Assembly: GCA_029263455.1 (NCBI GenBank)
Contig: JAJCXM010000026.1
Coordinates: 124,001 to 188,000 of the forward strand
Length of the DNA stretch: 64,000 nt
Source: Holophagae bacterium
Lineage (GTDB): Bacteria > Acidobacteriota > Holophagae > Acanthopleuribacterales > Acanthopleuribacteraceae
Direction: 5' to 3'
Shown: one piece after another, positions 18,419 to 28,036 of the stretch
Layout: each line of letters starts with the position of its first letter
Position numbering within the stretch: the stretch's first letter is position 1
Notes under the pieces: model-generated
Database searches by the model: none
What the model saw: only the letters and a program-made list of their open reading frames with translations
Told to the model about the DNA's origin: nothing
Made by a program: the position numbers and the translations under genes

Positions 18419-18709
18419 GGTCAGTCCTCCAATCAATAGCTTTATGCTTTAGCATAACCCAAACTCAAGCTTTCGGTTGATTACCATTTGGTTAATTGCC
18501 TTACGAGCCCCAACCCATGCCAAATCTAACGCAGCGCTCAGCACATCACGTCAAAGCTGGCGAATGAAACGCGCCTCCTGTTTTGGGTTTTGTTTGTGAA
18601 ACTCAGAACATTGGTGATCTAGCAGCTTCGCTTGAGCACGGGGCGACAAGCAGACCTACTTGTCATAACGCACAACTATTCAATAACCAGTTCAGCATAC
18701 CAGCCATTA
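18419..18709. other. Intergenic region between divergent genes
   Basis: The space between the DM13 gene (minus) and the propeller kinase (plus) has no convincing gene. A reading frame at 18583-18843 overlaps the kinase start and the operator and shows no ribosome site or family match. The only clear signal is the palindrome listed at 18710. Confidence 0.5.
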
Positions 18710-18766
18710 ATACCCAAATATGGGTATTTAAGTTAGATCTACACACTATTGCCGTATATTCACAAA
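18710..18766 (+). promoter_or_regulatory. Palindromic operator and promoter of the propeller kinase gene
   Basis: ATACCCAAATATGGGTAT (18710-18727) is a palindrome with perfect seven-base arms and a four-base centre. A TATATT -10 box lies at 18755-18760, and the ATG follows at 18767, seven bases after the box, so the transcript is probably leaderless. No -35 match is present, which suits an activator-dependent promoter with the operator centred near -48. The same operator with one central base changed precedes the response regulator gene. Confidence 0.65.
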
Positions 18767-21700
18767 ATGACTTGTATCGGCGCCGTGTCTTTATTTCTCT
18801 TCACTACGGTCAGTTTTCGCGTGCCACCGCAATTAACGTTTGAAAGATTAACAGTTGACGACGGTCTCTCTCACAATTCCGTTCGATGCCTGGTGCAAGA
18901 CGATACGGGTTATTTGTGGCTAGGAACATCCTATGGCCTTAACCGTTTCGATGGACAGCATATCGTTACATACAAGAGCGACTTGGACGAGAACCACGCC
19001 CTTTTAACAAATAGTATCAACGCGTTGGCGATTGGAGAGAATAACGCGCTTTGGGTTGGTACTGACAAGGGGTTGTATGTTTCATCGGATCGGACTCCGC
19101 GAAGGCGCCAGTTTCAAAAAATCGCATTAGGTGATACGCCTGTTGAGATATCCACTTTGTGTGTAGATTCAAGAGGCGATGTATGGGTTGGGTCGAACCG
19201 AGGTTTATGGCTCACGAATGGGTCGGAAACCGAGTTGATTGAAGAGACGTGGTCAGGCGAGGATTTCGTTCGAGCGATTGTGGAATATGAATCTGCAATT
19301 TGGGTAGGAAACAGCCAAGGCCTTTTTCGGCTTGCCCACGGCCAGCGGGATTTTGAGAAGTTGGACCTCCATCTAACCGACAGGTTTGGCGTCACCAGGC
19401 TCCAAGTGATTCAGGGAGAGCTTTGGGTTGGAACGAAGCATAAGCTTTGGCGCACTTCGGATTCCGAGAAGACGTTTCATCTAGAAATTGACCGGCACAA
19501 ATTGAAAGTAACCCACATGAATGGATTCGTCGTGAATGAAGACGCAATTTGGATCGGAACGATAGAGGGACTTTACCGAGTGGATAAGCAGTCTCGAGAA
19601 ATCAGTGTCTATCATTATGATGGCGTAACGGATGGCAGTATCGGGGCCAACTATATTCGGGACCTTGCCATTCTTGATGACGGCTCAATTTACATTGCGA
19701 CAAGTCCAGGAGGCGTTAGCCGAATAATTAGGGAACGACCCGCATTTGAGATGTTGCTTGAATCCCCTACAAAAGATCGATTAATCAACGACAGTTTCGT
19801 CTTGGCCGTCTCCCAAGCCTTTGACCATCTTTGGGTTGGTTCCTTATATGATGGCCTGCGTTTGATTGAGAAGGACCGTTCCATTCGAATTTGGCCATCT
19901 CAGGGACGAAGATCCGTTATCACAATATGTGAATCACAAGACGGGGTGTGGGTTTGGTTTGGAACCACAAGAGGCGCCTTGGGAGCGCACCGACAAACGC
20001 ACGATCTTCGGTTCGTACCAGGGATCGATCTTACTGTTTGGGCGATCGCTGAAGATCAAAACAACCAAATCTGGATAGGGTCCGAAATAGGCTTGTTTCG
20101 ATTCGACCCTAAACTCGAACAAACAACTCAGATCGTGGGTGTTGACGGCAGCGTGTCGGCAATTATCGAAACGCAAGATCGCGAAGTATGGACTGTCGGT
20201 AAGTTTGGTGTTGTCAACGTGCGATCAGAGGATGCAAATAACGTCAATCACACACAATTTGCGGAATTGGAAGGTCTTCGTTTTGTTGATATTGTGGAGA
20301 CAACAGACGGAAATATCTGGGTCGCTGGAGATGAAGGGCTTTGGCTTTTAGACCCTGATTCCGGTGATGTGTTTAATTACTCTGCTCGCTACCCTGATCT
20401 TGTGGATTTGCAATTTGTAAGCTTGGTCGAAGACGGGGTTGGGGCTGTTTGGGCTGGGACTTCAAAAGGATTGCTTCGCATCGATTTCGGCAATGAGTCG
20501 TTTAGGTTTTTCGATGCCGACGACGGGCTTGTAGGCATTGATTTTTCGCCAACGACAGCCTCGATGGCTCACGACGGTCGCCTCTTGTTCGGCGGCGTCA
20601 ATGGAATCTGTCACTTTCCGTCTGGAAACTTCCGTGACAATTCTCAGCCCGTCCAGGCGGCCATCGTTGGCGTCAACGTAGCAGGCCGGTCAATTTTGGA
20701 TGACGATGATTACTGGAAGCTTAGCTCTAAAAATGAATGGACAATCAGGTTGCCATACGACAGACAAGGCCTTTCGATTCAGTTCTCTGCCTTGGATTAT
20801 CAGTTCCACCGCAATTTGTTTCGCTACAAATTAGGGAGCCGCTCGGATTGGCAAGTCTTAGGCGAACACACGTTTGCCCACTTTCCCGAACTCGAACCTG
20901 GGCATTATGATTTTCTTGTGTCCACATCCAACCGTAGCGGCGTTTGGAGCGATGCGCCCGCTAAGTTAAAGATCATCGTCGACCCGCCTTTTTGGAAATC
21001 TGTTTGGTTCAGATCGTCTGTTGCTATCATTGTTTCGTTTGTAATTTTCGGCGTTATTTTCCTGAATCGTCGGGCCAAACTGAGAATCGAAATGGCCGCT
21101 CTCGCAACCAAACGTCAAGCAGCAGCAGACTTTCATGACCATCTGGGACACCAACTCACACGAATGTCCATGTTGAGTTCGATCGCCTTAGATAAATTAG
21201 AGAATCGATCGCAGCTTGAGTTCCTTCTTAATCAGATTCAATCGACATCAAGACGTATTTATTCGGAGTCTCGAGATTTCATATGGAGTTTATTGCCAGG
21301 GATGCATTCTTTACACGATGTGGCGGAGCATTTAGAAGATTTTGCGGTCGACCTTTTTGAAGCAACGGATTTTGAACTTCGAATGGCAATCCCGGAACAT
21401 GCTTTGGACTTCGTTTCAATTTCAAGCGAACAGCGCCGACATCTGTGCTTATTCGTGAAAGAAGCATTGCACAATGCGTTACGGCATAGTCATGGCGAGC
21501 ATGTCACTTTGTTTTTAAGCGTCGAAGAATGCCAAGTGATGGCTGTTATTGAGGATGACGGACAAGGTTTTAACTCGAATAAAGTTGCGGGCATAGGGTT
21601 AACAAATCTCCGACAAAGATCACAAGCACTCACCGGCTCAAGCGATATCGAAACGAGTGATAGGGGCACTCGAGTAAGGCTAAGGTTTCCAATAACCTAA
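18767..21700 (+). CDS. Propeller/Y_Y_Y sensor histidine kinase (HisKA_3, NarL type)
   Basis: A 977-residue sensor kinase. After a signal-anchor-like N-terminus, residues ~30-640 carry repeated two-component-propeller motifs (LVQDDTGYLWLGTSYGLNRFDG, with 'xLWVGTxxGL' recurring about a dozen times), forming one or two periplasmic beta-propellers. Residues ~645-720 match Y_Y_Y (FRYKLGS...LEPGHYDFLVSTSN). A membrane helix lies at ~745-765. The HisKA_3 phospho-acceptor is about H790 in DFHDHLGHQL, and the HATPase has EALHNALRHSHGEHV, EDDGQGF and GIGLTNLRQR. It lacks a receiver domain, so the separate NarL-type regulator at 21966 is the expected partner. Ligands of this class are often polysaccharide fragments; here the ligand is unknown. 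Confidence 0.92.
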   Translation: MTCIGAVSLFLFTTVSFRVPPQLTFERLTVDDGLSHNSVRCLVQDDTGYLWLGTSYGLNRFDGQHIVTYKSDLDENHALLTNSINALAIGENNALWVGTDKGLYVSSDRTPRRRQFQKIALGDTPVEISTLCVDSRGDVWVGSNRGLWLTNGSETELIEETWSGEDFVRAIVEYESAIWVGNSQGLFRLAHGQRDFEKLDLHLTDRFGVTRLQVIQGELWVGTKHKLWRTSDSEKTFHLEIDRHKLKVTHMNGFVVNEDAIWIGTIEGLYRVDKQSREISVYHYDGVTDGSIGANYIRDLAILDDGSIYIATSPGGVSRIIRERPAFEMLLESPTKDRLINDSFVLAVSQAFDHLWVGSLYDGLRLIEKDRSIRIWPSQGRRSVITICESQDGVWVWFGTTRGALGAHRQTHDLRFVPGIDLTVWAIAEDQNNQIWIGSEIGLFRFDPKLEQTTQIVGVDGSVSAIIETQDREVWTVGKFGVVNVRSEDANNVNHTQFAELEGLRFVDIVETTDGNIWVAGDEGLWLLDPDSGDVFNYSARYPDLVDLQFVSLVEDGVGAVWAGTSKGLLRIDFGNESFRFFDADDGLVGIDFSPTTASMAHDGRLLFGGVNGICHFPSGNFRDNSQPVQAAIVGVNVAGRSILDDDDYWKLSSKNEWTIRLPYDRQGLSIQFSALDYQFHRNLFRYKLGSRSDWQVLGEHTFAHFPELEPGHYDFLVSTSNRSGVWSDAPAKLKIIVDPPFWKSVWFRSSVAIIVSFVIFGVIFLNRRAKLRIEMAALATKRQAAADFHDHLGHQLTRMSMLSSIALDKLENRSQLEFLLNQIQSTSRRIYSESRDFIWSLLPGMHSLHDVAEHLEDFAVDLFEATDFELRMAIPEHALDFVSISSEQRRHLCLFVKEALHNALRHSHGEHVTLFLSVEECQVMAVIEDDGQGFNSNKVAGIGLTNLRQRSQALTGSSDIETSDRGTRVRLRFPIT

Positions 21701-21905
21701 AGGTATTTTCCATGAGCTTTAGTTTGGAAAATTTCATGGTCAATTCTTCAATTTTGTCTAAGGATCAAAGCAAAAGAAGAACATTACAAGTAGACCCAAA
21801 ACCATACTCAAGACGATGAACAAGCTAAGTATACGATCGCTATCTCGATGAGCTTGTAAGGGGAAAAAGAGTCCTCGGTGGTTTTCAATTCAAACTCGAG
21901 TGCTG

Positions 21906-21965
21906 ATACCCAAATGTGGGTATTTGTGAGCCAAGGTAATCCGAAGTGACCTATATTATTTGGAA
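21906..21965 (+). promoter_or_regulatory. Palindromic operator and promoter of the response regulator gene
   Basis: ATACCCAAATGTGGGTAT (21906-21923) differs from the kinase operator by one central base. TATATT follows at 21952-21957, and ATG 21966 lies nine bases after it. The distance from palindrome centre to -10 box is 37.5 bases here and 36.5 at the kinase promoter, so the architecture is conserved. Confidence 0.68.
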
Positions 21966-22601
21966 ATGAAGGAGCGTAAGTTGATTCGTATTGTCGTTAT
22001 TGACGATGACACCATCATTCGTGAAGGCTACCGATCAATGATTAATCGGTCGGACGAAATGGTTTGTGTTGAAGTTTATGGCGACTGTGAGTCGTCTTTT
22101 CCGAACATTCTTTCAGACAAACCGGACGTGATCCTGCTGGATATTTCTCTTCCTGGAATGTCTGGTATCGAGGCCATTAGCGAATTCCATGATGTCCTAG
22201 GCAAGGTCGATATCATCATGATAAGCATCCATACGGATGATGATCGCGTTTTTGCTTCGCTTCGAAATGGCGCAAGTGGCTATCTGACAAAGATCGTTAC
22301 ACCAGCGAGACTGATCAATGCAATCAAGGAGGTATTTCTTGGAGGTGCACCGATGAGTACTGAAATAGCGCGCCGTGTTATTGAATCGATGCATTCGCCT
22401 AACCATAAAACAACGCTAACCAAGCGCGAGATGCAAGTGCTAAGAAGGCTATGTGAAGGGAACAGTTACAAGATGATCGCTGACCAATTATGCATTAGTG
22501 TTTTAACGGTGCAAACACACATCAAGCATATTTATAGGAAGCTTCAAGTCCATTCGCAAACAGAAGCTGTCTCGCTGGCCATTCGAAAGGGGATGGTGTA
22601 G
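21966..22601 (+). CDS. NarL/FixJ-type response regulator
   Basis: A 211-residue two-domain regulator. The receiver domain has the acidic pair D13/D14 (VVIDDD), the phospho-acceptor D59 in VILLDISLPGMSG, and the conserved Lys of GYLTKIVTPARL. The C-terminal LuxR-type helix-turn-helix (LTKREMQVLRRLCEGNSYKMIADQLCISVLTVQTHIKHIYRKL, here split by its turn) is complete. The start is ATG 21966; an in-frame TTG at 21960 falls inside the -10 region. It sits 265 bases after the kinase with its own copy of the shared operator, so it is the likely protein that binds the ATACCCA-N4-TGGGTAT palindromes and regulates both genes. Confidence 0.93.
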   Translation: MKERKLIRIVVIDDDTIIREGYRSMINRSDEMVCVEVYGDCESSFPNILSDKPDVILLDISLPGMSGIEAISEFHDVLGKVDIIMISIHTDDDRVFASLRNGASGYLTKIVTPARLINAIKEVFLGGAPMSTEIARRVIESMHSPNHKTTLTKREMQVLRRLCEGNSYKMIADQLCISVLTVQTHIKHIYRKLQVHSQTEAVSLAIRKGMV

Positions 22602-22984
22602 GCGTAGCCCATACAAAGTTAACTAAAGCGACTTTCTGCCAGCGACTGTCATGACGTTCGCGACCCCCGATGTGGTCGCTGCACCTAATCTGGTACGCGA
22701 AACTCGTTAAATGCTAGTTCGAAGATCCGACAACGACGGTCCGTTGTCCCTGGCGTTGTTCTGTTGTTCTGATCGCGTTGTGGGTTCGCGCCGACGTAAA
22801 CGGACGAATCTTGGCTATCACACTGAGCGAAGCAGATGTCCTCTGGAGGAACATCCTTAGGAACGTTCAGGATCGAGGGCAGGATGAAGTCGCTCAAATA
22901 CCTAGATTGAGGTATTTCAATTATTTAGCTGAAGCGCTTCAATTGAGGTAAGCCAGGTATCACAAATTTGTCCGGAGGTAGTTA
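22602..22984. other. 383-base intergenic region with a palindrome
   Basis: No convincing gene is present. A 6-base hairpin GCGACC/GGTCGC lies at 22660-22679 after the regulator and has no T tail. A 70-codon minus-strand frame (22685-22897) starts with TTG inside the palindrome, lacks a ribosome site and matches nothing I know. The segment from 22896 onward is regulatory (next entry), and GAAGCGCTTC at 22931-22940 is a ten-base perfect palindrome. Confidence 0.5.
22896..22917 (+). promoter_or_regulatory. Palindrome upstream of the first paralogous secreted protein gene
   Basis: Perfect eight-base arms AAATACCT and AGGTATTT are separated by six bases (AGATTG). The half-site ATTGAGGTA recurs at 22942-22950, 36 bases downstream. 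The arms share ATACC/GGTAT with the kinase and regulator operators, but spacing differs (6 rather than 4), so binding by the same regulator is only a possibility. The gene start at 22985 has its own CGGAGG ribosome site. Confidence 0.5.
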
Positions 22985-23545
22985 ATGAATAGATTAGTAC
23001 CATTTCTTTTACTTTTTACGTTGCCGACCCTTTCTCAGACAACGATTCAATACGACTCAGGTATTGTGGGAAATCAAATCGCCTACGATGTCCAAGGGCT
23101 CAGTGGGAATTTATTTACTGGGCTTGGGACCTCACGAACCGTCACCAAAGTAACGGTCTTCGTTACTTCCCTACCGGGCGGCATCTATTCTCCTTTACTC
23201 TTGATGGGCCTTAGAGACTCGGGATCTGCTGGTGTAAACCTGGGGTCGACCCTCATAAATCCTGCCGCGCTAGGGTTCAATACCGTTACGCTTGCTACAC
23301 CTGTGAACTTTACAGGAACTGACGTTTGGGTTCAAACTAACGACTACGGTGCGAAAGGGATACCTCTTGATGCTGTAAGTAACGCCGGTCAAGGCTTTCA
23401 CGCGTGGGGTCAAGTACAAGGAAATATCGGTCCTATAGACACGATGGGCGTCGTGAATGGGACCGGAAATCCTGCCAATATGTGGATTCGGATTTCCGGA
23501 CCGGCAGGGTTACCCGTCGAATTACTGTATTTCAATATTGACTGA
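22985..23545 (+). CDS. Secreted protein, paralog A, with LPVELLxF C-terminus
   Basis: A 186-residue exported protein with signal peptide MNRLVPFLLLFTLPTLSQ. The mature part is a cysteine-free beta-rich domain: TIQYDSGIVGNQIAYDVQG, then NLFTGLGTSRTVTKVTVFV, FTGTDVWVQTN, GQGFHAWG and IGPIDTMGVVNG. It ends NMWIRISGPAGLPVELLYF plus three residues. The protein at 27485-28036 is a close paralog across the whole length. The LPVEL-x-x-F ending resembles the linker that precedes the type IX sorting domain in Bacteroidetes proteins, but here the chain simply stops there. I do not recognise the domain. It is followed 23 bases later by the sulfatase-like gene. Start ATG 22985 with CGGAGG upstream. Confidence 0.88.
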   Translation: MNRLVPFLLLFTLPTLSQTTIQYDSGIVGNQIAYDVQGLSGNLFTGLGTSRTVTKVTVFVTSLPGGIYSPLLLMGLRDSGSAGVNLGSTLINPAALGFNTVTLATPVNFTGTDVWVQTNDYGAKGIPLDAVSNAGQGFHAWGQVQGNIGPIDTMGVVNGTGNPANMWIRISGPAGLPVELLYFNID

Positions 23546-23568: not shown

Positions 23569-25698
23569 ATGAACAGGTTTCGCGGCATATCCCCTTTTGT
23601 TGTGCTTGGTTTATGTTTGTTGGGATTATTTGGATACTACAAATTCCAACCGAAACGTTGGAATGTACTCGTCATTACAATAGATACGACCAGAGCAGAC
23701 CATCTAGGCTGTTATGGGAGAAGCCCAACTGCTTCGCCGACCATCGACTCACTGGCTAGTGGCGGCGTTCTCTTTGAGAATGCGTACGCAACGGTTCCTT
23801 TAACAACGCCTTCACACTCGTCCATCATGACGGGAAAATACCCGTTTAGTCATGGGGTACGAGACAACGGTCTGTTTGTGTTGCCACCAAGCCAAGAGAC
23901 ATTGGCCGAAGTTCTTAAGCAACACGGGTATTCTACAGGCGCAGCTATTGGCGCATTTCCTCTCGTTCGAAAGTTTGGGCTCGATCAAGGGTTTGATTTT
24001 TACGATGATCAACTAACTAAGAAGTCAAACGTTCTTGGAACGCAGGCGCAGCCAATTAATCTCTTTTTTGATGAACGAAATGCTGGCGACGTCAATGGGG
24101 CAATTTATGAATGGTTGGAAGCACAAAAGGGACCCTTTTTTGCCTGGGTACACTACTACGACCCCCATCAACCGTGGCAACCGAAAACGCCCTTCAGAGA
24201 ACAATTCTCAGATCCTTACCTTGGCGAGATTGCGTCCTGTGATCACCAAGTCAGTCGACTACTCGATGCTCTTCAAACCAACGGGACACTTGAGAATACC
24301 CTCATCGTTATAGCTAGCGATCATGGAGAGGGTCTGGAAGAACATAATGAAGCAACGCATGGGCACCTACTCTACAACGCTACGCTCCATATTCCGCTAA
24401 TCGTTCGTGTACCTGGGCTGGAAGAAGGAAAAAGAATTCAGGAATGGGTCTCGACGGTGGACATCATGCCAACGGTTCTTGATTACATGAACATAGAAGT
24501 CCCGAACAACATACATGGTCAATCACTTAAACCCCTTATCGAAGGTCATAGCCCTTTTAAGAGGGCTCTTCCGTTGTACGCAGAAACACTCTCTCCCAGA
24601 CTGAGTTATGGGTGGGGAGAACTTAGAGCCATCATGCAAGCTCCTTACAAGTATATTCACGGGCCGAGGCCCGAGCTTTTCGACTTAGAGACTGACCCAA
24701 ATGAAAGCCATAAAGACTTAGAAGAGCATTTAGCAGGAGAAAGCATCCGTTTTCGAAGCATATTGGAGAATCTTATTGAGTCCCATGCTGCTCCACCCGA
24801 AGATGCGTTGCTGACCCTTGAACAAGATGAAATTGATATGCTTAGATCGCTGGGTTACGTTTCGAGTGGTAATGACGTCAGCCTTGTCGATCAGTTGAGA
24901 GAGGACGGGATTCCTCCGCAAGATCGAGCCCAGGATATTACTCGATGGAGCCAGGCTCGACACGCATTGAGCTTAGAAAAACCACTCACGGCTAAGGTCC
25001 ATTTAAGAGACTTAATTGAACGGGACCCATTGAATCCCGTTTATATCGAGCTAATGGTGCATTGTGAGTCCATGTTGGGTAATCCAATTGCCGCGGAGCA
25101 GCTTCTTGACCAGCTTGGGCATTCGAAACGTTTCGTTCGACTTGATTCGCGGACGCCATTGGCGGTGGCACACGCCTACCTGGAAACCGGTTCTCTTGAT
25201 GACGCCACTCGAATGTATGAGCTGTCGTTGTCCATTCAGCCCGACGCCGAGCGGTGGGTTGATTGTGCTCGCATCTACCATCACCTCAATAATAAGGTTG
25301 GCTACGTCACAGCTCTTAAACAAAGTCTCATATGTAATCCAAATCATGTTCCGTCTCTTGTGGCTCTGGCGGTCGAAGACGCAAAAAGTGGTAACTACCA
25401 GCAGGCGGAATTCAGGTTGACCAAGGCAATAGACCGCCATCCGCAGTATGCGCCGGCTTGGCTAAACTTGGGCGTTATGGCCCATCAGCACCGTCAGTAT
25501 AGAAATGCCGTTGATTGTTTTTCTCGGGCCTTGGAATTTGCACCGGTATATGAGCAGGCTCATTTATACCTCATAGAGAGTCTCGTAAATAATTCCCAAT
25601 TAAATGAAGCTGGGGACGCTCTAAATACGTTCGGTCGTTTATGTCCCGCATCCGATCTCCTTGATGATGCAGCGAAAATCGTAAAGGGTGCACCATGA
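23569..25698 (+). CDS. Sulfatase-superfamily membrane protein with TPR domain
   Basis: A 709-residue protein with one N-terminal membrane anchor (residues ~8-25). Residues ~33-420 form an alkaline-phosphatase/sulfatase fold: metal-binding IDTTRADHLGCYG, SDHGEG with EEHNEATHGHLLY, and HYYDPHQPW. The residue that is Cys or Ser in formylglycine sulfatases (C-x-P-S-R) is Thr79 in LTTPSHSS, so formylglycine maturation is excluded and a Thr nucleophile, as in phosphoglycerol or phosphoethanolamine transferases, is likely. Residues ~450-705 are TPR-like helical repeats (ARHALSLEKPLTAKVHLRDL, YAPAWLNLGVMAHQHRQYRN). The 3' end overlaps the parvulin gene by ATGA. Substrate unknown; a surface polymer or exported protein is plausible. 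Confidence 0.88.
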   Translation: MNRFRGISPFVVLGLCLLGLFGYYKFQPKRWNVLVITIDTTRADHLGCYGRSPTASPTIDSLASGGVLFENAYATVPLTTPSHSSIMTGKYPFSHGVRDNGLFVLPPSQETLAEVLKQHGYSTGAAIGAFPLVRKFGLDQGFDFYDDQLTKKSNVLGTQAQPINLFFDERNAGDVNGAIYEWLEAQKGPFFAWVHYYDPHQPWQPKTPFREQFSDPYLGEIASCDHQVSRLLDALQTNGTLENTLIVIASDHGEGLEEHNEATHGHLLYNATLHIPLIVRVPGLEEGKRIQEWVSTVDIMPTVLDYMNIEVPNNIHGQSLKPLIEGHSPFKRALPLYAETLSPRLSYGWGELRAIMQAPYKYIHGPRPELFDLETDPNESHKDLEEHLAGESIRFRSILENLIESHAAPPEDALLTLEQDEIDMLRSLGYVSSGNDVSLVDQLREDGIPPQDRAQDITRWSQARHALSLEKPLTAKVHLRDLIERDPLNPVYIELMVHCESMLGNPIAAEQLLDQLGHSKRFVRLDSRTPLAVAHAYLETGSLDDATRMYELSLSIQPDAERWVDCARIYHHLNNKVGYVTALKQSLICNPNHVPSLVALAVEDAKSGNYQQAEFRLTKAIDRHPQYAPAWLNLGVMAHQHRQYRNAVDCFSRALEFAPVYEQAHLYLIESLVNNSQLNEAGDALNTFGRLCPASDLLDDAAKIVKGAP

Positions 25699-27338
25699 AA
25701 AACTTCTTAGTGTGCGTAACATTAAGTCTCTGTACTTGCGGTCCATCAAACGAACTTGATCGATCAAAGATAAGCGAATGGGCACAAGGATCAATTAATT
25801 CCCATGAACTTATGTCGCTCCTACGAGAGTCCGAAGCGCAAATCGACTTCAATGATCCTGATTCTGCCTTGCAGGAAATAAAGGAAAGAGTACGGCGTCG
25901 CGTCATCGAGAATGAACTCGAACGGATTGCCCCTTCTCTGGGGTTAAACCTTACGAAAACACGTCTCCAAGTAGAACGTAGTGTAGCAATGGACATCTTT
26001 CATGACGAACTGGCTTCCAATTCCATTTCTGACGATGATCTACGTCGTCAGTATGAAGCTCGTCAAGACGACTTCAAAAATCCTGCTCGTCGCTTGACTT
26101 TGCACTATTTCAAACGAGGATCTAATCGCGACACGTTAAAAGCGGCGGTCAAGAAATTTCGAGGGCGACTCGACTCTGGGGAGACATTTCAATCACTCGC
26201 TTACGAACTTTCCGACTCAACATCGCGCCATCAAAAGGGCCAATTGGGCTGGATTCGCGAATCTGATGTGCCCTCGGCAATCTGGTCGGTTATTTCAAGC
26301 CTCCCTATGGGTGAATTGAGCCAACCGATCTATTCAAATGAAGGCGTTCATCTCTTTCTTGTCAAAGATCATATGGCCGAGTTTCACATAAATTTTGAAG
26401 ACGCGAGAAAACGGTTGATCAAAGAACTTAGGTTCGAGCAACTACGGACGAGCCGTAATAGCCGACTATCTGAAATGACGATCGAACATGATTTCTGGTG
26501 TATTTCGGCTGATGTGCTTTCACAAGATACCCAACTCGATCGGTCCCATGTGATCATGCGGTCAAACGATTACGAGCTAACCAGTGCCGATCTGAATCTT
26601 CTAGTTTCAGAAGCGACAAAATACGGTTGGAGAAATAATTTCAACGACCTCGTTGACTTTCTCAAGGCACGAGAAGTCATCTACTTTAACTTTGTGGATC
26701 GCCTAAATGAACCTGCAATCAAGAATCTTGTAAGAAAAGGAATGACAAGCTGGATACATACGAACACTCGGCAGCGCCTTTTAAAGAAGTGCGTGACCGA
26801 TGACATGCTCCTCGAGTACTTCAGATTGAATCAAGATAAATACGAAACAGAATTAGAACTTAAACTGGATCTGCTTAATTTTCCTTGCCCTTTGCGTATT
26901 GATCCCAATTATTTAATGGGCCATCTTGAAGATGCTGCTTCTCATGAATTGTCCAGCGACGAGTTCAATGCCTTGACACAAATGCTAGAAATTAAACCTC
27001 TCGATATAGGATGGAATACTGTATGGCAAGCTGGTACACATTACCCGGGACCGTTGGCCTATATAACTTCACTGAAGCCAGGATGGATGACGCCACCTCT
27101 CTTTCGCAACAATAGATATATAGCTGTGTATGCGTCTGCGAGGAAGGAACCTGTTTTAAGGTCCCTTGAAGAAGTCAAAAGCGAAGTCTTGATCGACTTC
27201 GTCAACTCGAATTGCGACGCCCTCATAGAGGATTTGGAAAATGAACTAATCAACCAATCGCAAATGCACACTTATGATGAAAATATTCAATCGTTCATTT
27301 CGTCTCTGAAAACACCTTTGCCTCAGCCAAACAATTGA
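25695..27338 (+). CDS. Exported parvulin-type peptidyl-prolyl isomerase / SurA-like foldase
   Basis: A 547-residue protein with a signal sequence ending in CVTLSLCTCG. The cysteines could serve lipid attachment, but the lipobox is not clean. Residues ~110-235 match a parvulin PPIase domain (YEARQDDFKNPARRLTLHYF, then FQSLAYELSDSTSRHQKGQLGWIRESDVPSAIWSVISSLPMGELSQPI over several strands, and EGVHLFLVKDH). The flanking helices resemble SurA/PrsA chaperones. A second, weaker region near residues 370-500 may be a degenerate second domain. ATG 25695 overlaps the sulfatase stop (ATGA), so it is translationally coupled. It could fold or escort the two paralogous secreted proteins that flank the pair; this is inference. 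Confidence 0.85.
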   Translation: MKNFLVCVTLSLCTCGPSNELDRSKISEWAQGSINSHELMSLLRESEAQIDFNDPDSALQEIKERVRRRVIENELERIAPSLGLNLTKTRLQVERSVAMDIFHDELASNSISDDDLRRQYEARQDDFKNPARRLTLHYFKRGSNRDTLKAAVKKFRGRLDSGETFQSLAYELSDSTSRHQKGQLGWIRESDVPSAIWSVISSLPMGELSQPIYSNEGVHLFLVKDHMAEFHINFEDARKRLIKELRFEQLRTSRNSRLSEMTIEHDFWCISADVLSQDTQLDRSHVIMRSNDYELTSADLNLLVSEATKYGWRNNFNDLVDFLKAREVIYFNFVDRLNEPAIKNLVRKGMTSWIHTNTRQRLLKKCVTDDMLLEYFRLNQDKYETELELKLDLLNFPCPLRIDPNYLMGHLEDAASHELSSDEFNALTQMLEIKPLDIGWNTVWQAGTHYPGPLAYITSLKPGWMTPPLFRNNRYIAVYASARKEPVLRSLEEVKSEVLIDFVNSNCDALIEDLENELINQSQMHTYDENIQSFISSLKTPLPQPNN

Positions 27339-27398: not shown

Positions 27399-27416
27399 AT
27401 CCCATATTCATGGGAT
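27399..27416 (+). promoter_or_regulatory. Palindrome upstream of the second paralogous secreted protein gene
   Basis: ATCCCATATTCATGGGAT has perfect seven-base arms and a four-base centre, the same overall 18-base geometry as the kinase and regulator operators, with CCCA/TGGG cores. A further half-site TCCCAT follows at 27422-27427. An AATACT -10-like sequence at 27455-27460 lies 47.5 bases from the centre, about one helical turn farther than at the kinase and regulator promoters. Confidence 0.5.
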
Positions 27417-27484: not shown

Positions 27485-28036
27485 TTGAAATTAGCTAACA
27501 TTGCCATGTTGTTGGTCGGGTCTCTTTGTTTTGCTCAAACCACGATTCAATACGATTCCGGTATCGCGGGTAATCGTATTCCATACACAATCCAAGGAAG
27601 TAGTGGCAACCTATTTACTGGCTTAGGTAGCTCCAAGACTTTAACTCGGGTTACCTTTTTCATTTCTGTTTTCCCAAGTCCAGGGATATTTGGAATTCAG
27701 ATCCGCGATTCGGGCTTAGCTGCCGCTAATATCGCTGCGACGGCCATCGCGGTGCCGACAACAGGACTTGTGTCGGTCAACTTGGCATCTCCTGTCATAT
27801 TTACGGGTACTGATGTTTGGGTCGCAACCAACGCTTACAATAACAAGGCCGTTCCCCTAGACGGGGTCAGCATGCTGGGTCAGGGATTCCATGCATGGGG
27901 GAGGCAAGCCTCGATCGTAGGCCCCATCGATACGATGGGTGTCATTAATGGCGGCGGAAACCCAGCGAATATGTGGATTCGAATTACAGGCCCAGCTGGG
28001 CTGCCGGTTGAACTTTTACACTTTTCTGCTGAATGA
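27485..28036 (+). CDS. Secreted protein, paralog B, with LPVELLxF C-terminus
   Basis: A 183-residue exported protein with signal peptide (KLANIAMLLVGSLCFAQ). It aligns end to end with the protein at 22985-23545: TTIQYDSGIAGNRIPYTIQG, GNLFTGLGSSKTLTRVTFF, GTDVWVATNAYNNKAVPLDG, GQGFHAWG, and the nearly identical tail NPANMWIRITGPAGLPVELL. By eye well over half the residues are identical, highest at both ends. The start is TTG 27485, supported by CGGAGGG at 27471-27477, eight bases upstream. It has its own upstream palindrome, so expression may be independent of the preceding operon. Function unknown. Confidence 0.87.
   Translation: MKLANIAMLLVGSLCFAQTTIQYDSGIAGNRIPYTIQGSSGNLFTGLGSSKTLTRVTFFISVFPSPGIFGIQIRDSGLAAANIAATAIAVPTTGLVSVNLASPVIFTGTDVWVATNAYNNKAVPLDGVSMLGQGFHAWGRQASIVGPIDTMGVINGGGNPANMWIRITGPAGLPVELLHFSAE

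Follow-up and report, generated by a model that had tools for sequence, protein, structure and literature searches.

The stretch of DNA analysed here (the window, 64,000 nucleotides) carries a gene for a sensor histidine kinase, followed by a gene for a NarL-family response regulator and a gene for a predicted exported protein. Similar palindromes were found 5' of the three genes. The features are as follows.

18710-18727: candidate operator 1, ATACCCAAATATGGGTAT, 5' of the sensor kinase gene; a NarL-type 7-2-7 arrangement, TACCCAA-AT-ATGGGTA
18755-18760, + strand: candidate -10 box TATATT of the kinase promoter
18767-21700, + strand: sensor histidine kinase with an export signal-like N-terminus, Reg_prop propeller, Y_Y_Y, HisKA_3 and HATPase_c (Pfam)
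21701-21965, + strand: gap of 265 bp between the kinase and regulator genes
21906-21923: candidate operator 2, ATACCCAAATGTGGGTAT, 5' of the regulator gene
21952-21957, + strand: candidate -10 box TATATT of the regulator promoter; the alternative is an overlapping TATTAT at 21954-21959
21981-22601, + strand: NarL-family response regulator (Response_reg and GerE); preferred start TTG 21981, alternative ATG 21966
22898-22915: candidate operator 3, ATACCTAGATTGAGGTAT, degenerate; full dyad AATACCT-N6-AGGTATT
22985-23545, + strand: predicted exported protein of 186 aa, a probable target

The kinase-regulator pair and its promoters

The sensor kinase is 977 residues long, and its start at 18767 agrees with the N-terminus of its paralog. 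It has the make-up of a Reg_prop/HisKA_3 sensor kinase, with propeller repeats, Y_Y_Y, HisKA_3 containing the histidine motif DFHDHLGHQLTR, and HATPase_c. The regulator has the domains of a NarL/FixJ-type protein (Pfam: Response_reg, 5.1e-22; GerE, 1.6e-19). Its best matches among known structures were VraR, ChrA and NarL (VraR 5hev, E 7.7e-29; NarL 1a04, E 6.6e-26). Against PRK10651.1, used for the E. coli NarL equivalog, it scored 131 bits, which is below the cut-off of 250. No close ortholog of the pair was found in the GTDB genomes; there were distant relatives only, and the best outside match to the kinase had about 29% identity. The preliminary description placed the regulator start at ATG 21966. 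However, the first methionine of regulator homologs aligns with Leu6, which is TTG 21981, and a Shine-Dalgarno sequence, AAGGAG, is located at 21969-21974, six bases 5' of this codon. These results suggest that translation probably starts at TTG 21981, in which case ATG 21966 would fall within the leader or at its border.

The two copies of ATACCCA-N4-TGGGTAT, at 18710-18727 and 21906-21923, are identical at 17 of 18 bases and differ in one central base. Both 18-mers were recovered where the preliminary description had located them, and its estimate of about 37 bases from palindrome centre to TATATT was borne out, as the distance to the start of the box was 36.5 bp for the kinase and 37.5 bp for the regulator. 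Six bases lie between TATATT and the kinase ATG at 18767, and eight between the regulator TATATT and ATG 21966; the "seven or nine" bases given earlier are right if counted to the A of the ATG. A start 7 bp past TATATT would coincide with ATG 18767, and the kinase mRNA may be leaderless. No -35 hexamer was recognisable in the promoters of the kinase and the regulator. In dinucleotide-preserving shuffles, a hexamer common to both promoters at the same offset (+/-1) occurred in 1.9%, and such a hexamer with at least 5 of 6 bases like TATAAT in 0.06%. Outside the operator, the promoter flanks were identical at 9/60 positions upstream and 10/46 downstream, which is the level of unrelated DNA. A recent duplication of a promoter therefore does not account for the shared operator. 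On the other side of operator 1, a perfect inverted repeat, TTATGCTAAAGCATAA, is present at 18426-18470 of the window, centred 31 bp 5' of the ATG of a divergent gene for a DM13-domain protein.

The 265-bp gap was the largest among the pairs compared. On its contig C4, the source genome has a paralogous Reg_prop pair with the same domains (kinase 37% identical, regulator 56%). Unlike those of the window pair, the C4 genes overlap by ATGA without an operator between them, and a 7-2-7 palindrome of the window type was not found 5' of the C4 kinase gene. Kinase and regulator genes abut or overlap in genomes G001 and G004, and the gap of a further pair in the source genome is at most 91 bp. It had been remarked earlier that separate promoters for neighbouring kinase and regulator genes are unusual, and this agrees with the related pairs, which overlap or nearly so. 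Our literature search on two-promoter autoregulated pairs gave no direct precedent. A scan of the 265-bp gap found no strong terminator, so the regulator may be transcribed by read-through from the kinase as well as from its own promoter. In this respect, the earlier proposal of two separate transcripts is overstated.

Genome-wide distribution of the candidate operator

The source genome (6,246,672 bases, 6.25 Mb, in 40 contigs) was searched with patterns and profiles. The full ATACCCA-N4-TGGGTAT was found twice, both times in the window, where a first-order Markov model of the window predicts 0.009 copies for the genome. The core TACCCA-N4-TGGGTA was found four times versus 0.12 expected. All four exact cores are intergenic and 5' of genes, namely those of the kinase, the regulator and two exported proteins (on contigs C20 and C21), whereas 14/14 one-mismatch versions of the core lie inside ORFs (4/4 versus 0/14 intergenic; Fisher p = 1/3060). 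The tight core shows the genome-wide preference for positions 5' of genes that marks a regulon operator. Random occurrence without promoter enrichment had been named in the preliminary description as evidence against its reading, and the opposite was seen. It could be argued that the motif is short and comes from a single genome, and that the two palindromes resemble each other by chance. The excess of the full motif over expectation and the segregation of exact from one-mismatch cores make this extremely improbable. These results indicate that the palindromes are very probably real operators, and the NarL-type regulator encoded next to them is the obvious candidate to bind them.

When a profile was built with just the kinase and regulator sites, it recovered one further site in the genome, the C20 site before an exported-protein gene. 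With a profile from five sites (those of the kinase, the regulator and the exported-protein genes at 22985, on C20 and on C21), only those five scored above 13 bits and the next site, at 12.9 bits, lay in coding sequence, a partly circular result as the same five sites trained the profile. The pattern ATACC-N8-GGTAT also has five sites in the genome, three of them inside 4.2 kb of the window locus. The relaxed TACYYM-N4-KRRGTA showed no overall enrichment (19 versus 40 for the reversed control), and our claim is therefore restricted to the tight form. TACCYA-N4-TRGGTA occurred seven times in the source genome versus once for the control. In six other genomes of the order it was no commoner than the control, except in G001 (one versus none), and the site set is therefore particular to the source genome.

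Several other candidates were rejected. A looser third match to the full pattern (C1:5012, ATACCAAGCATTGGGTAT) is within an nqrE-like coding sequence, C8:712345 is within a Phage_holin_4_2 gene, and C39:15778 is within an ORF. At C4:183411, a Ser/Thr kinase gene is preceded by a site (TACCCAAAGTGAGGTA) that is intergenic but asymmetric; the profile does not recover it, and it was kept as no more than a possible site. The site at C3:57142 (TACCTATTAATAGGTA) is directly 3' of a TetR-family gene, has a second similar palindrome beside it, and was taken as a TetR operator. At this place (L107:4143-4182), TACCTATTAATAGGTA and TTACCTTCTGGTAGGT follow each other between the TetR-family gene and the next gene, and they are likely a TetR operator pair that mimics the searched pattern.

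Proposed regulation of the pair and alternative explanations

The three window sites have the form TACYYMN-NN-NKRRGTA, with 6/6 heptamers fitting TACYYM, as in 7-2-7 operators. The consensus of the five aligned sites is AAATACCCAnATnTGGGTATTT. The NarL output domain binds sites of the 7-2-7 kind as a dimer, and a standard engineered site is TACCCCTAAAGGGGTA (PMC4549865). The E. coli NarL 7-2-7 sites of napF (-40 to -49) and yeaR (-38 to -47) are activating (PMC4549865). With TATATT as the -10 box, the centre of the window sites is near -48, a few bp farther upstream than in napF and yeaR. The window pair resembles E. coli NarL/NarP (napF, yeaR) in regulator family, in inverted TACYYMT-like heptamers 2 bp apart, and in having the site just 5' of the core promoter. 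Unlike in E. coli, the sensor has a Reg_prop propeller instead of nitrate-sensor domains, and just a few genes, the pair itself among them, make up the predicted regulon.

We propose that the palindromes are operators of the regulator encoded at 21981-22601, which, phosphorylated by the kinase, activates both genes and a few exported-protein genes (probability about 0.7). The kinase (18767-21700) would sense a signal through its exported Reg_prop domain and phosphorylate the NarL-type regulator. Dimers of the regulator would occupy TACCCAN-NN-NTGGGTA, some 48 bp before each likely transcription start, and turn on the kinase and regulator genes separately, which would be positive autoregulation. 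A very few exported-protein genes may be under the same control, namely 22985, perhaps together with operon partners, and two genes in other parts of the genome. We infer the phosphorylation, the identity of the binding protein, and activation over repression. The conserved promoter design described earlier applies to the operator-to--10 spacing common to the kinase and regulator promoters, but it is absent from the other targets. Operator 3 and that of C21 differ in being weaker or in their placement, about 78 bp before the start codon. The earlier interpretation of the kinase and regulator palindromes as a whole is partly supported.

Activation is favoured because the operators are 5' of the likely -35 position and the promoters lack a -35 hexamer. 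The same features, with neither the -10 box nor the start covered, argue against negative autoregulation, in which the adjacent regulator binds the sites but represses its own expression and that of the kinase. As NarL-family proteins are also capable of repression, with frdA as a precedent (PMC4549865), we consider this unlikely but worth keeping in view. The sites may instead be bound or shared by a different regulator, above all the 56%-identical C4 paralog, whose helix-turn-helix is very similar; no such palindrome was found before the C4 kinase gene. However, 3/5 good sites belong to the window pair and the promoter that follows it, there is none near the C4 pair, and the recognition helix differs (VLTVQTHIKH in the window regulator versus ELTVHTHIKN). 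Binding by a different regulator, or cross-regulation, seems unlikely. Each repeat could also form an RNA hairpin with a 7-bp stem and a 4-base loop and act as an attenuator or terminator rather than a protein operator. The stems have three G-C pairs each and are followed by two or three T, the repeats are 5' of the -10 boxes and hence outside those mRNAs, and the terminator scan makes no call at them. Hairpin function is thus very unlikely.

The layout of our proposed activating pair, in which the gene for a NarL/FixJ-type regulator comes after that for the kinase, is also that of Bacillus subtilis DegS-DegU. DegS-DegU targets include exported proteins; DegU sites are not known to be of the 7-2-7 kind, and DegS is cytosolic and has no propeller. 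Unlike in DegS-DegU, both window genes carry a near-identical operator. Autoregulation of degU was reported by Ogura and Tsukahara, as cited in PMC4793158.

Autoregulated NarL-family pairs and 7-2-7 operators are already known; the particular operator, the sharp small regulon and the link to a Reg_prop sensor are new. For Reg_prop-type sensor systems, predictions of operators and targets are, to our knowledge, rare, and the signals and regulons are mostly not known. The sharp operator and the five listed promoters open regulator binding, autoregulation and the role of the exported targets to direct tests. The same operator at split kinase and regulator promoters also offers a clean case for studying changes of the kinase-to-regulator ratio during feedback. 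A broader and rather doubtful reading is that the locus is a self-contained module, in which kinase and regulator are split into two autoregulated transcripts (that of the kinase possibly leaderless) and drive little other than a few exported proteins. If so, the kinase-to-regulator ratio could shift with activation, and the minimal regulon of a Reg_prop sensor would be fully defined.

Predicted targets and neighbouring palindromes

Operator 3, a third, weaker copy in the next intergenic region (22898-22915), was missed in the preliminary description. Its dyad is kept, as a C-to-T change on one arm is matched by G-to-A on the other, and its centre is 78.5 bp from the ATG of the gene at 22985. 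A sulfatase-TPR gene (23569-25698) begins 23 bp past gene 22985-23545 and is overlapped by a PPIC-type isomerase gene (25695-27338). The exported-protein gene is possibly the first of an operon with these two. Elsewhere in the genome, the exact core at C20:291428 precedes an exported-protein gene that is cut by the contig end. At C21:94104, the exact core precedes the start of its gene by 77.5 bp, and the exported protein encoded there has propeller-like repeats. Shortly 5' of this C21 gene there is a gene that by sequence encodes a group II intron-type reverse transcriptase (L110:5964-7379).

A different perfect palindrome, ATCCCAT-N4-ATGGGAT, is present at 27399-27416 of the window. It is unique in the genome and is 77.5 bp 5' of gene 27485, nearly the distance of operator 3 from its gene, and gene 27485 is a 61%-identical paralog of gene 22985. 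This palindrome is possibly a diverged operator or the operator of another regulator. Neither exported protein (22985-23545, 27485-28036) had a significant Pfam or NCBIfam match, and their relatives were found solely in the same genus. The two paralogous genes flank the sulfatase-TPR and PPIC-type isomerase genes, and both proteins carry a C-terminal GLPVELLxF stretch.
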